A stretch of 64,000 bases of DNA from NCBI RefSeq assembly GCF_025979705.1, contig NZ_CP110136.1, forward strand, positions 186,001 to 250,000, in the 5' to 3' direction. This stretch comes from Hymenobacter sp. YIM 151858-1. Lineage in GTDB: Bacteria; Bacteroidota; Bacteroidia; Cytophagales; Hymenobacteraceae. Position numbers and translations under genes: made by a program. This document shows, piece by piece, positions 14,259 to 19,325 of this stretch (the first letter of the stretch is position 1; every line of letters starts with the position of its first letter). Below the pieces are notes generated by a model. The model did not search any database and was not told where the DNA came from. It was given only the letters and a program-made list of their open reading frames with translations.

Positions 14259-15698
14259 TTACTGAGCCGCCTTGCCGCGCTCCAGCACGCGGTAGCTGTG
14301 CGGCGGTACGGGCAGCGTTACATCGGGCGCAATGGTATAGGCCTGATCCACGAACACATCCTGGTAGTTGCCCGCCCACTGCCGGGGTATTTTCACCTCC
14401 TGCAGCTCGTTGCCCATGTTCACGGCTACCAGCACGGCATCGGGGCCTTTGCGGCGCACGAAGGCATACACCGAGGCCGGCGAGGCCAGGCGCACGAATT
14501 GGCCGCACGCGTCGCCGTTGGCCAGGGCGGGGTTGCGCTTTTTCAGCTGCAGCAAGCGGGTGTAAAAATCCTGCAGCGGGTAGTTGCCCCACGCAATGGG
14601 GTCTTTGTCGAAAAACTTGAGGCGCTTTTTCAGGGCCGACTCCTGCCCGCTGTACACCATGGGAATGCCCGGCAGAAGGCCCGTGAGCACGGCCTGCGGC
14701 ACGGCGTTTTGGCCCAGGCGTTCGTACTCGGTGCCGTCCCAGGTGTTGATGTCGTGCGAGGTGGTGAAGTACATGAGGTACGCCGAGGCCGGGTACCTGG
14801 CGCGCTCGGCCTGCAGGTACGTATCGATGGCCGCTACGGGCTGCTGGCCGCGGGCTACGCTATCGAGCAGGTAGCGCAGGCGCAGGGCGTAGGTGGCATC
14901 AAAAGCCTTTTCGAGCATGCGGGTGTTGGGGTCGAACTCGCCCGGTTTCAGGAAGGGCGGGTTGTGCAGCTCGTCCCACTCGGCCAGCATAAACACCGGC
15001 TTGATTTTCTCGAGCTCCTGGCGCGTGTTGTTCCAGAACTCCATGGGCACCAGCCCGGCCACGTCGCACCGGAAACCGTCGACATCAGCCTCGCGCACCC
15101 AGTAGGCCATGCTTTCCGTCATGTACCGGCGCAGCTCGGGCTTGCTGAAATCGAGGTCGATTACATCCTGCCAATCGGCTACGGGCGGCACGGGCTGGCC
15201 TTGCGCGTTGCGCGTAAACCACTCGGGGTGCTCCTGGGCCAGCTTACTATCCCAGGCGGTGTGGTTGGCCACCCAGTCGAGGATTACGTGCATGCCGCGC
15301 TTGTGCGCCTCCCGCACCAGGTGGCGCAAATCGTCGAGGGTGCCCATTTCGGGGTTCACGGCGCGGTAATCCTGCACCGAGTAGTAGCTGCCCAGGCTGC
15401 CCTTGCGCTTTTCCTGCCCAATGGGGTGCACCGGCATCAGCCACAAAATGCCCACGCCCATTTTTTGCAGGCGCGGCAGGTGCTGCTCGAAGGCCCGAAA
15501 CGTGCCCTCGGGCGTGTATTGCCGGATGTTCACCTCGTAGATGCTGGCCTGGCGGGCCCACTCGGGGTGCTTAATGGTGTACTGCGGCGGGGTGGGGGCG
15601 CAGCTGGCGGGGGCGGAGGTTTCGGGTTGGCGCTGCTGGCAGGCGCCGAGCAAAGCGGCCGATAGCAGCCCCAGCGAAAGAACGGTGACGGAACGCAT
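14259..15698 (-). CDS. GH13 alpha-amylase family lipoprotein
   Basis: A 479-residue exported lipoprotein: signal peptide with lipobox LLGAC, lipidated Cys20. The GH13 barrel shows IYEVNIRQYTPEG at the start, DWVANHT (region I), DGFRCDVAGLVP with the nucleophile aspartate, FMLAEWDE with the acid/base glutamate, and TTSHDINTWDG with the third carboxylate. This points to retaining hydrolysis or transfer on alpha-1,4-glucans; the family cannot be narrowed from sequence alone. It converges on the amidohydrolase gene and is divergent from the sensor kinase. Surface or periplasmic maltodextrin breakdown is the likely role. Confidence 0.92.
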   Translation of the reverse strand: MRSVTVLSLGLLSAALLGACQQRQPETSAPASCAPTPPQYTIKHPEWARQASIYEVNIRQYTPEGTFRAFEQHLPRLQKMGVGILWLMPVHPIGQEKRKGSLGSYYSVQDYRAVNPEMGTLDDLRHLVREAHKRGMHVILDWVANHTAWDSKLAQEHPEWFTRNAQGQPVPPVADWQDVIDLDFSKPELRRYMTESMAYWVREADVDGFRCDVAGLVPMEFWNNTRQELEKIKPVFMLAEWDELHNPPFLKPGEFDPNTRMLEKAFDATYALRLRYLLDSVARGQQPVAAIDTYLQAERARYPASAYLMYFTTSHDINTWDGTEYERLGQNAVPQAVLTGLLPGIPMVYSGQESALKKRLKFFDKDPIAWGNYPLQDFYTRLLQLKKRNPALANGDACGQFVRLASPASVYAFVRRKGPDAVLVAVNMGNELQEVKIPRQWAGNYQDVFVDQAYTIAPDVTLPVPPHSYRVLERGKAAQ

Positions 15699-15837
15699 GG
15701 CCTAAACATACGCGGTTGCGCTTGTTGTGCCGCCGCCCCTGCTGCCGCGGCACTGGCAGCAATCGTTTGGAAGTGTACCTTTAAAGCACACCCTCAGCCG
15801 CTACGGGCAGGCTGGGGGCGCTTTCGGTTGTTTGCTT

Positions 15838-17847
15838 ATGAAATACCTCTATTGGCTTTTGGCCGGAACAGTGCTGCTGGCTTTCGTAATGTGGGCCCTG
15901 GTGCCGGCACCCGAGCCGGCCGCTACGGCTACGTTGGGCGGGCAGGTAGTAGAGTTTTTTGCGCTCCTGCTCGATCCGACGGGCTTTCCGGCGCGGTGGC
16001 GCTGCGGCCGCTGGACGGACTTTCACGGCTGGCTCTACATCCTGTCCGATCTGCTGATCTGGGCGGCGTACTTCACCATTCCGTTTCTGCTGATCAACTT
16101 TGTGCGGCAGCGGCGCGACATCCCCTTCGACCGGCTGTTCTGGGCCTTCGGCTTGTTCATTTTCGCGTGCGGGGCCACCCACCTGATTGATGCCATGATT
16201 TTTTGGGTGCCGGTGTACCGCCTCAGCGGGTTGGTGCGCCTGCTCACGGCCGTGGCCTCGTGGGGTACGGTGTGGGCCTTGGTGCTGGTGCTGCCCAGGG
16301 CCTTGCTGCTGAAAACGCCCACCGAGCTGGAGCAGGTGGTGCAAGCCCGCACCGCCGAACTGGGCGTCGCCAACGAGCAACTGCGCCAGCGCGAGGCCGA
16401 GTTCAGCACCTTGGCCAACGCCATTCCGCAGCTGGCCTGGATGGCCGAAGCCACCGGCGATATTTTCTGGTACAACCAGCGCTGGTACGAGTACACCGGT
16501 ACCAACTTCGAGCAGATGAGCGGCTGGGGCTGGGAAAAAGTGCACCACCCCGAGCACCTAGGGCATGTGCTCGAGGTGTGGCGCCGCCACCTGGCCACCG
16601 GCGAGCCGTGGGAGGACACCTTTCCGCTGCGGCGCCACGACGGCGTTTTTCGCTGGTTTCTGTCGCGCGCGGTGCCCATCCGCGACGAGCACAACCGGAT
16701 TGTGCGCTGGTTTGGTACCAACACCGACGTAACCGACATGCGCGAGCTGCAGGAGCAGGTGCAGCGCAGCGAGGCGCAGTACCGCGTGCTCATGGAAAGC
16801 ATTCCGCAGCTGGTGTGGTCGGCCGATGCGCAGGGCCAGCTTACCTACTGCGACGGCCGCACCACCGACTACACCGGCCAAACCCCGGAGCAGCTGCGCG
16901 GCCAGGCCTGGCACACGCTGCTGCACCCCGACGACCAAACCGCTGCCCTTGCCCAGTGGGCCGAGGCGCGCCAAACCTCGGGCCTGCTCGCGGGCGAGTA
17001 CCGCCTGCGCCGCCACACCGGCGAGTACCGCTGGTTTCTGGTGCAGGCGCGCCTGCTGGGCAGCACGGCCCCGGAGGCCACGGGCCAGTGGTTTGGCACC
17101 TGCACCGATGTGCACGAGCAGCACACGCTGCGCGAGGCCCTGCAGGTGCAAAACGCCGAGCTGGCCCGCACCAACCGCGAGCTTGACACCTTTGTGTACG
17201 CCGCCTCGCACGACCTGAAGCAGCCGGTACAAAACCTCACGGGCCTTTTTGCCGAGCTGAAACGCACCGTTACTTTCAGCGACCCCGACGCCGAACGCAT
17301 GCAAGCCATGGTGGATGACTCGCTGACCCAGCTGCTAAGCACGGTGCAAGCCCTGGGCGAAGTAGTGCGCGTGCAGCGCCAGGTAGAGAAGCTGCCGCCC
17401 GAGCCCGTGCTGCTGCAGCCCTTGGTGGAGGAGGTAATCCGGGCCGTGCAAGACCTAGGCACCACGCCGCCCACCTGGCAGCTCGATTTCTCGGCCCTTT
17501 CGGCCGTGGTGTTTGTGCGCGCCAACCTGCGCTCGGTGCTCTACAACCTGCTCAGCAACGCCGTGAAGTACGCCGACCCCAGCCGCCCGCCGGTAATTGC
17601 GGTGCGCACGGAGGTGGCCGATGGCGTGCCCGTACTGGTGGTGCAGGATAACGGCCTCGGCATCGACCTAGGGCGCCACGGGCGCGAGCTGTTCCACCTG
17701 TTTCGCCGGTTCCACGACCACGTGCCCGGCACCGGCGTGGGCCTGTACCTGGTGCAGCGCCTGGTAGAGCAAGCCGGCGGGCGGCTTGAGGTAGAAAGCG
17801 CTGTGGGGCAGGGCACCACGTTCAGGGTGTATCTGCACGTGGCCTAG
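15838..17847 (+). CDS. Ethylene-receptor-like hybrid of EBD, two PAS domains and histidine kinase
   Basis: A 669-residue membrane sensor kinase. After a first hydrophobic helix (4-24), residues 64-150 give three helices matching the ethylene-binding domain of plant ETR1. Asp71, Tyr78, Pro82, Cys111 and His115 reproduce the ETR1 residues Asp25, Tyr32, Pro36, Cys65 and His69 with identical spacing, and CGATHLI is identical around the Cu(I) ligands. Two PAS domains follow (about 195-312 and 318-438). The kinase core has phospho-acceptor His458 in AASHDLKQP, the N box NLLSNAVKYAD and GTGVGLYLV. ATG at 15838 begins MKYLYW; an in-frame start at 15727 adds 37 unlikely residues. No response regulator is adjacent. 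Confidence 0.9.
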   Translation: MKYLYWLLAGTVLLAFVMWALVPAPEPAATATLGGQVVEFFALLLDPTGFPARWRCGRWTDFHGWLYILSDLLIWAAYFTIPFLLINFVRQRRDIPFDRLFWAFGLFIFACGATHLIDAMIFWVPVYRLSGLVRLLTAVASWGTVWALVLVLPRALLLKTPTELEQVVQARTAELGVANEQLRQREAEFSTLANAIPQLAWMAEATGDIFWYNQRWYEYTGTNFEQMSGWGWEKVHHPEHLGHVLEVWRRHLATGEPWEDTFPLRRHDGVFRWFLSRAVPIRDEHNRIVRWFGTNTDVTDMRELQEQVQRSEAQYRVLMESIPQLVWSADAQGQLTYCDGRTTDYTGQTPEQLRGQAWHTLLHPDDQTAALAQWAEARQTSGLLAGEYRLRRHTGEYRWFLVQARLLGSTAPEATGQWFGTCTDVHEQHTLREALQVQNAELARTNRELDTFVYAASHDLKQPVQNLTGLFAELKRTVTFSDPDAERMQAMVDDSLTQLLSTVQALGEVVRVQRQVEKLPPEPVLLQPLVEEVIRAVQDLGTTPPTWQLDFSALSAVVFVRANLRSVLYNLLSNAVKYADPSRPPVIAVRTEVADGVPVLVVQDNGLGIDLGRHGRELFHLFRRFHDHVPGTGVGLYLVQRLVEQAGGRLEVESAVGQGTTFRVYLHVA

Positions 17848-17915
17848 GTGCCGCGCGCCTGCCCAGCCCGGCAACTGCCCGTAATGCTTGCCTGTAATCG
17901 GCGCGCCAGGCTGCC

Positions 17916-19112
17916 CTAGGCCAGCAGCCCTAGGTGCTGCAATGCGTAGCCCGCGGCGGCACCGCCCAGCACCAGCCACGCCGAGTTTACCTTGTAGCGC
18001 AGCAGGAGCACCGCCGCCAGCCCGGCCAGCAGCAGGGAGGGCGCATCAACCACGGCCGTGCGCGCCAGCCCCACCGATACGGCCGCCATCAGCGCCCACG
18101 AGGCCACGTTCAGGCCATCCAGAAAAGCCGCGGCCACGGGCGAGCGGCGCAGCTCGGCCAGCAGCGGAATGCTTAGCGCCACGAACACAAACGCCGGCAG
18201 AAATATGCCCACGGTGGCCGCCAGCGCCCCGCGCCACCCCAGCAGCACGTAGCCGATAAACGTAGCCGTGGTAAACACCGGCCCCGGTGTAACCTGGCCC
18301 ACCACCACGGCATCGAGCAGTTGCCCGTGCGTAAGCCAGCCAAAGCGCAGCACCAGGTCCGCGTTCAGAAACGCCAGCAGCACATAGCCGCTGCCGTACA
18401 GCACCGAGCCTATTTTGCCGAAGGCCAGTAACAGGGCACCTGGGCTGAGCGGGGCCGCCGCGGCGGCAGGCGCAGCGCGCAGGCCCAAGGCCCACGGCAG
18501 CAGCGCCAGCACCGCCACCGCCCCAAACAAAATCGGCAACGCTGTTGGCACGGTGCGCGTGGGCAGTTGCGGCCAGCGCAGGGCCACGGCCACCGCGCCG
18601 GTAGCAAACAGCACCAGCAGCTCGTTGGCGCCGAGCAGGCTTGCGGCCAGCGCCGCTACGGCCAGCACCTGCAGCCCGGAGGTACGCAGCGCCGAGCGCC
18701 CCAGGCTCCAGAGCGCCTGCGCCACCACGGCGACAATCACGGGTTTTACGCCGTAGAGCACTCCGCTAAAAGCCGGCAGCGTACCAAAGCGCACGTACAC
18801 CCAGGCCAGCGCCATCACGATTAGCATAGCCGGCAGAATAAAGCAGCTGCCCGCCACCAGCAACCCGGCCCAGCCCCGCCGCTCGTAGCCCAGATGAATG
18901 GCCAGCTCGGTGGAGTTGGGCCCCGGAATAAGGTTGGCCGCGCTCAGCAAATCCAGGAAACGCTGCTGCGTAAGCCACTGCCGACGGCGCACCACTTCTT
19001 CCTCCATCAACGCCACGTGCGCCGCCGGCCCCCCAAACGCCGTAGCACCTAGGCGTAAGAACAGGAAAGCCAGTTCGGCCAACGAGGTGCGCGCTTCGGG
19101 AGGCTGGGGCAT
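17916..19112 (-). CDS. chrA: Chromate transporter (ChrA/CHR family)
   Basis: A 398-residue polytopic inner-membrane protein with two homologous halves. The first half has FLRLGATAFGGPAAH and NLIPGPNSTELAIHLG; the second has FGKIGSVLYGSGYVLLAFL and GQVTPGPVFTTATFIGY. These paired FGGP/PGP motifs mark the long-form CHR family, which exports chromate in characterised members. About ten or more membrane helices are predicted by eye. The start at 19112 (MPQPPEART) is preferred; 19145 is possible. It is divergent from the bestrophin gene with roughly 210 bases between, the likely shared promoter region. The true anion is not shown by the sequence. Confidence 0.9.
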   Translation of the reverse strand: MPQPPEARTSLAELAFLFLRLGATAFGGPAAHVALMEEEVVRRRQWLTQQRFLDLLSAANLIPGPNSTELAIHLGYERRGWAGLLVAGSCFILPAMLIVMALAWVYVRFGTLPAFSGVLYGVKPVIVAVVAQALWSLGRSALRTSGLQVLAVAALAASLLGANELLVLFATGAVAVALRWPQLPTRTVPTALPILFGAVAVLALLPWALGLRAAPAAAAAPLSPGALLLAFGKIGSVLYGSGYVLLAFLNADLVLRFGWLTHGQLLDAVVVGQVTPGPVFTTATFIGYVLLGWRGALAATVGIFLPAFVFVALSIPLLAELRRSPVAAAFLDGLNVASWALMAAVSVGLARTAVVDAPSLLLAGLAAVLLLRYKVNSAWLVLGGAAAGYALQHLGLLA

Positions 19113-19325
19113 GCGGCGTGAGTTGCTTCGGTCAGTAATATGCATTCCCGAAAAAGCGGCTGCATTAGTGGTTGTGGATCAGTTTGTTACCAGTGTCGTT
19201 GGCCGGGTGCAGCCGCGCCGGGGCCACCAACAAGGCCCAAGGGTACGTAGTTATACGCCGAAGTCCGTTTTAATCCCTGCGGTTTGCAGGTGCCCTGAGG
19301 GAGGGCAAGTTTACGCCCGTTTGTT

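Follow-up and report, generated by a model that had tools for sequence, protein, structure and literature searches.

Does the histidine kinase encoded in the stretch of the Hymenobacter sp. YIM 151858-1 genome analyzed here (hereinafter the window: 64,000 nucleotides, C1:186001-250000, GC content 63.2%) contain a genuine ETR1-type ethylene-binding domain, and what might such a domain sense in a member of the Bacteroidota? The preliminary description had singled out Asp71, Tyr78, Pro82, Cys111 and His115, spaced by 7, 4, 29 and 4 positions, and the segment CGATHLI; both are present in the translation, the latter beginning at residue 111. A multiple alignment showed the ethylene-binding set to be complete (D71, Y78, I81, P82, I108, C111 and H115), with Thr137 and Ser141 additionally aligning with ETR1 Thr94 and Ser98. 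The ETR1 residues used for comparison are Asp25, Tyr32, Pro36, Cys65, His69, Lys91, Thr94 and Ser98, Tyr32 being one of those needed for ethylene binding. The accessible parts of the literature name ETR1 Asp25 and Cys65/His69, list Ile35, Pro36 and Ile62 among the residues needed for ethylene binding (PMC6586836), and implicate Lys91 in output.

Profile searches agree with the proposed ETR1-type domain: the Pfam model ETR1_N (PF25487) matches residues 63-156 (e-value 4e-35; 120.4 bits against a cut-off of 27), which excludes a chance motif, while the same model is found in 0 of 14 control genomes. ETR1_N is the only Pfam family on this segment, and no profile in that search placed residues 60-155 in another membrane-sensor family; among the NCBIfam matches listed (25 of 75), none covers residues 63-156 alone. 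The observation is thus real and was correctly named, and assignment to this family, with a predicted Cu(I)/ethylene function, is the best reading of the sequence. Pfam likewise bears out the two PAS domains and the histidine kinase (HATPase_c) noted before (Table 1); none of the 9 Pfam families matched is a receiver domain. The reading frame upstream of the annotated ATG stays open as far as a GTG at 15727.

Table 1. Features of the kinase gene, its flanks and the related ATPase fusions (window positions, except where a locus is named)
Feature	Coordinates	Strand	Remarks
EBD-PAS-PAS-histidine kinase gene	15838..17847	+	single open frame, 669 aa plus stop; ATG start
N-terminal hydrophobic helix, residues 2-21	15841..15900	+	signal peptide or additional membrane helix
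Lead-in motif RWRCGRW, residues 53-59, including Cys56 and Trp59	15994..16014	+	
Three-helix ETR1-type ethylene-binding domain (61-91, 98-120, 127-157)	16018..16308	+	Pfam PF25487 and model
Asp71, equivalent of ETR1 Asp25	16048..16050	+	
Cys111 to His115, aligned with the copper ligands Cys65 and His69 of ETR1	16168..16182	+	
Arg134, at the place of ETR1 Lys91	16237..16239	+	
PAS domain 1, residues 194-302	16417..16743	+	Pfam
PAS domain 2, residues 314-425	16777..17112	+	Pfam
His458, presumed phospho-acceptor in FVYAASHDLKQP	17209..17211	+	
HATPase_c catalytic domain, residues 563-667	17524..17838	+	Pfam, E 1.8e-20
Alpha-amylase-family protein, divergent neighbor	14259..15698	-	there also where the kinase is absent; not thought part of the system
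Chromate transporter, convergent neighbor	17916..19145	-	missing at this site in G005 and G004; not thought part of the system
ATPase-receptor fusion	L230:1940-6535	+	
ATPase-receptor fusion	L231:2892-7592	-	
ATPase-receptor fusion	L233		ends at contig end

A structural model of residues 1-165, computed with 99 aligned domains, is confident (mean pLDDT 93.3) and predicts helices at 2-21 and 33-42, an ordered loop, and then the three long helices of the ethylene-binding domain (block pLDDT 94-98), which hydropathy likewise reads as transmembrane. The RQRR segment following the first long helix would, by the positive-inside rule, place Cys56 on the outer side and the PAS domains on the inner side of the membrane. 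The hydrophobic stretch at the very N-terminus is paralleled in several host-family rows, with no counterpart in L005, L009 and L015 and an ambiguous case in L013. A PDB sequence search up to an e-value of 10 gave no match to the ethylene-binding domain, and Foldseek against solved structures (best e-value 0.85) found no solved ethylene-binding domain on which to overlay the model, and it seems that no such structure has been deposited; a search of a viral library returned one match lacking a name (e-value 6.4e-3). In the accessible text of one review the structure of the ETR1 domain "has been elucidated" (PMC10452086), whereas that of a later one refers to ETR1 domain models instead (PMC13012798). 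A compact bacterial domain with a confident model may make an easier structural target.

The kinase core of the window protein looks intact, judged by its sequence: H458, N570, N574, D604, G606, G608, G633 and G635 all fall in columns at least 90% conserved across 81 proteins of the subtype defined below, the window protein included. All 81 match ETR1_N, with HATPase_c in 78, HisKA in 54 and a receiver in 2; the window kinase is below the HisKA threshold. With ETR1 it shares the seven ethylene-binding residues, the equivalents of Thr94 and Ser98 and the three helices; it differs in having Arg134 for Lys91, a lead-in RWxCGxW whose single Cys stands against Cys4 and Cys6 of ETR1, an additional N-terminal hydrophobic stretch, PAS domains in the place of the GAF domain that ETR1 contains, and no receiver domain. 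Such receptors had been described as a plant and cyanobacterial feature, which does not hold, as a functional ethylene receptor, AzoEtr1, is reported from the proteobacterium Azospirillum brasilense Sp7 (PMC11819568, section 7). The alignment with AzoEtr1 (L131) is gapless across the lead-in motif and the ethylene-binding domain; this receptor has the same domain and kinase class, and its copper Cys, Asp, and lead-in Cys and Trp all align; unlike the window kinase, it has a PHGxC lead-in, a Lys at the Lys91 place and an adjacent regulator gene. SynEtr1 of Synechocystis is likewise a bacterial kinase whose ethylene-binding domain is functional according to the accessible text, which describes it as differing by a cyanobacteriochrome-type module and by signaling to the regulator slr1213.

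How common is the domain? It had been called unusual in Bacteroidota, which fails because its distribution across the sampled genomes is broad: PF25487 occurs in 21 of 395 sampled Bacteroidota genomes (two of the copies are doubtful, L007 for a stop codon and L022 for the want of the copper Cys), and in 34 of 200 genomes of the host family, 15 of these 34 belonging to genus g175 with degenerate-looking copies (11 of the 15 had loci, which were read). Within the host genus it is present in 2 of 8 genomes. Further afield it was recovered in 53 of 194 genomes of a sample centered on a Caenarcanales genome (called Cyanobacteriota here after its center genome; 30 places with loci were aligned) and in 8 of 99 of a planctomycete-centered sample. 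A pattern scan of species genomes for the window subtype retrieved 249 relatives. The domain is ordinary for its family and commoner than had been supposed. The best 80 of the 249 (L051-L130, selected by the patterns FHGWLYIxS or [AP]RWxCGxWT[DSE]) include Hymenobacter, Mucilaginibacter, Dyadobacter, Niastella and other Bacteroidota, together with four Planctomycetota, one Polyangia MAG, one cyanobacterium MAG and one Caenarcanales MAG; since this set is pattern-picked, residue conservation within it is partly built in. As a separate observation, the last two (L057 and L116, Candidatus Caenarcanales) have the RWxCGxW lead-in, unlike the PHGxC of the cyanobacterial rows, reflecting either transfer or wrong MAG binning. 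The L007 copy (G378:C12:287246-287527) has an in-frame TGA within the first helix of the ethylene-binding domain gene.

We assign the window protein to what we here name the "RWxCGxW...HGW" subtype of Bacteroidota and Planctomycetota. In a phylogenetic tree it falls in a group of seven rows (SH-aLRT 99), the five nearest being from its own family, nested in a group of 79 rows (SH-aLRT 98), 76 of which have RWxCGxW; this was a quick tree (129 columns, 168 rows) with 78 of 165 inner branches open, and ETR1 sits on a long branch whose placement was not used.

Conservation was counted on an alignment of 167 domains from several phyla, from which twelve duplicate domains had been taken out. All seven ethylene residues are kept in 136 of the 167, and the copper Cys in 155; none of the 165 rows tallied by group lacks the copper-ligand His. 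The position of Lys91 is R in 60 and K in 8 of the 73 rows from the pattern-picked set. The Asp position varies where the His, and partly the Cys, is conserved: N, S and G occur there, and E in a degenerate clade. A smaller alignment (A6, 99 rows) was assembled without the degenerate clade L040-L050, L007, L022, L177, the five rows from plasmids and some near-copies; columns invariant in it thus describe a selected set of rows.

Outside the helices, the lead-in motif RWRCGRW directly precedes the first long helix in the window kinase, and its Cys and Trp extend well beyond the subtype. Cys56 is matched in 30/30 rows of the cyanobacterial sample, 5/5 plasmid rows, 7/9 of the planctomycete sample and 23/28 Bacteroidota rows without RWxCGxW; the corresponding figures for Trp59 are 30/30, 5/5, 9/9 and 25/28 (both residues are matched in 73/73 of the pattern-picked rows). 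Across the 167 rows, the lead-in and the copper Cys are both present in 149 and both absent in 12, with only the lead-in missing in 6 and only the copper Cys in none; 11 of the 12 rows lacking both are one clade, and the joint loss therefore reflects few events. From this pattern we infer that the lead-in Cys aids copper loading or ties the dimer. ETR1 itself is reportedly a disulfide-linked dimer, going by the title of a study. Cys4 and Cys6 are the residues of the ETR1 disulfide.

The clade in question, L040-L050 of genus g175 in the host family, has the lead-in Cys or Trp in 0/11 members and the copper Cys in 0/11; it has also lost the Pro36 equivalent, and in 11/11 the phospho-acceptor His is replaced by Arg (ASRDLK or a similar sequence). 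The two members scanned still match HATPase_c. Another host-family protein (L034) is a canonical ethylene-binding kinase except that its phospho-acceptor His is an Asn (ASNDLK).

Does the kinase have a partner? The preliminary description had found no cognate regulator beside it, and this stands: the genome yields 39 receiver-domain matches (e-value up to 0.001), of which 0 are in the window. The window kinase differs in this from its subtype, where a stand-alone receiver gene lies on the same strand at most 260 bp past the end of the kinase at 41 of 80 loci (the best 80 of 249); with another profile and a distance of up to 700 bp the count is 43 of 80, three loci leaving no room to tell. Neighbors were counted with profiles, single-sequence searches being too insensitive. 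No adjacent stand-alone receiver occurs at the sister-species locus (L051) or at the Hymenobacter loci L052-L055, while in Hymenobacter coccineus (L056) one lies 83 bp downstream of the kinase; the missing neighbor is a feature of the lineage of the window kinase. Comparison of the host's receivers (30 of the 39 through their loci and three more through sequence stretches) named no specific partner. The one closest to the H. coccineus receiver (G000:C1:2848912-2849301) was rejected, as it follows its own 949-aa PAS/GAF kinase. A second (C1:2473023-2473436) has no kinase among the neighbors scanned and was set aside as not specific, because it is present in 8/8 genomes of the genus as against 2/8 for the ethylene-type kinase.

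The surroundings of the gene, an amylase and a chromate transporter, offer no visible tie to ethylene physiology. The sister species (G005) has its kinase, 96% identical in the ethylene-binding region with all key residues kept, in the same place between amylase and bestrophin genes, without the chromate transporter; among L051-L056, only this locus shares the neighbors tested. In a further species (G004; amylase 92% identical) kinase and transporter are both absent, about 225 bp separating the equivalents of window positions 15749 and 19314. The kinase was either gained in the ancestor of both carriers or lost in G004. The interval 15750-19313 is a variable site: sister species differ in whether they have the kinase there, and likewise in the chromate transporter.

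Elsewhere in Bacteroidota the domain is physically joined to a copper pump. In genus g120, three of four genomes encode in one frame a copper-exporting P1B ATPase, the ethylene-binding domain, a PAS domain and a histidine kinase; in the fourth (G950) the domain was not matched. The order is an HMA-type GMTCTNC, the P1B ATPase (CPC, DKTGT, GDGIND), ETR1_N, PAS, HisKA and an ATPase-type end. Two of these domains (L006 and L008) are each part of a 1567-aa frame, the two frames being 94% identical. They score 560-562 bits against TIGR01511 (copper-translocating P-type ATPase; cut-off 397), and their best solved relatives are copper ATPases. In the third genome (G951) ATPase and domain share a frame of 1028 aa that extends towards the end of its contig, with 68% identity over 658 residues spanning the junction. 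Two of the genomes (G191 and G380) additionally encode a separate CopA of normal size. The domain is present in 6 of 80 genomes of the family of g120, and the fusion only in the three. Both fully read fusions have Asn at the Asp position and Asp at the Lys position, so their ligand may differ. By analogy, the fusion looks like RAN1 plus ETR1 in one chain; we count it as separate evidence that Bacteroidota domains hold copper, though it proves nothing about the window protein. Judged by title and abstract, the papers retrieved in searches for such a fusion did not deal with it. The fusion would make copper delivery to a receptor testable within one chain.

Taking sequence, model and analogy together, we regard the window protein with moderate confidence as a membrane-bound ethylene-receptor-type histidine kinase, whose role would most likely be Cu(I)-dependent ethylene sensing. 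Following ETR1, SynEtr1 and AzoEtr1, the dimeric membrane domain would hold Cu(I) at Cys111 and His115, and ethylene, reaching the copper from the membrane, would bind there; Asp71, paired with Arg134 in place of Lys91, would relay the change to helix 3, from where it might pass via the PAS domains to alter autophosphorylation of His458. The phosphate would then go to an unlinked stand-alone receiver protein, a step that is probable because many relatives have one adjoining. Copper could be supplied by two host ATPases that score above the cut-off of the CopA-type family. In the open-access text searched, where absence is no proof, we found neither copper nor ethylene binding by any Bacteroidota protein nor a report of Bacteroidota ethylene receptors, the one mention of Bacteroidetes concerning ACC deaminase.

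Against ethylene sensing stand the occurrence of the gene in only two of the eight genomes of the genus, the Arg in place of Lys91, the failure to reach HisKA, the neighboring genes, the lack of a nameable specific regulator and of a solved structure for overlay, and the silence of the searched text on Bacteroidota proteins. The domain might instead sense Cu(I) itself, with copper loading of the Cys-His pair switching the kinase and ethylene incidental at most. The variation at the Asp position where the His, and partly the Cys, stays would fit this, as would the copper exporter fused to the domain in three species, two of them with the Asn for Asp that cuts the ethylene affinity of a plant receptor about 100-fold according to PMC13012798. 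However, the window protein retains all seven ethylene residues, the ten neighboring frames scanned include no copper gene, and the femtomolar copper affinity of ETR1, as stated in the accessible text of PMC6586836, is more in keeping with a permanently bound cofactor than with reversible sensing. On balance we consider direct Cu(I) sensing unlikely. Since Cu(I) binds several pi-acids, and could do so in a site of this kind, a Cu(I)-based sensor for a different small gas or alkene, such as carbon monoxide or acetylene, is also conceivable; the hosts of the subtype are for the most part Bacteroidota that are not known to make ethylene or to partner with plants. The intact seven-residue pattern of ETR1, and the response to ethylene described in the accessible literature for AzoEtr1, SynEtr1 and the Geitlerinema receptor, make this quite improbable.

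The membrane domain could, finally, be a vestigial anchor, with the two PAS domains of the window kinase as the true sensor. The degenerate clade of the host family, devoid of copper Cys, Pro and lead-in motif, shows that such loss can happen; yet the window protein and its 96%-identical sister keep every key residue, and we hold a vestigial role to be very improbable here.

Building on the preferred reading, Cu(I)-dependent ethylene sensing, we tentatively raise the possibility of a separate, widespread Bacteroidota/Planctomycetota subtype of such sensors, in which the Cys-Trp lead-in on the outer side, found in other bacterial members too and disappearing together with the copper Cys, would act in copper loading or dimer locking; the window kinase would be an orphaned member signaling to an unlinked receiver, and the ATPase fusion a one-chain counterpart of plant RAN1 plus ETR1. 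The accessible parts of the literature discuss ethylene sensing as belonging to plants, to cyanobacteria and to proteobacteria that associate with plants. If the Bacteroidota domains bind ethylene, the capacity would be common across a large phylum whose members live mostly in soil and freshwater, and what the domain did ancestrally would become an open question. The points of interest are the ligand in Bacteroidota, the lead-in motif and the ATPase fusion.

Members of the wider family are also carried on plasmids. A DNA search of plasmids gave no match, while the domain searched as protein against 72,556 plasmid records matched 19, all below 60% identity. On a Novosphingobium plasmid typed as conjugative, an ethylene-binding kinase and a receiver gene (L134:2962-4429) lie near a Cas9 gene. 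Two short proteins, in Hymenobacter daecheongensis (L055:5812-6528, + strand) and at L078:5962-6540 (+ strand), have an intact ethylene-binding domain without a kinase match; the tail of the former, judged by eye, resembles a coiled coil.
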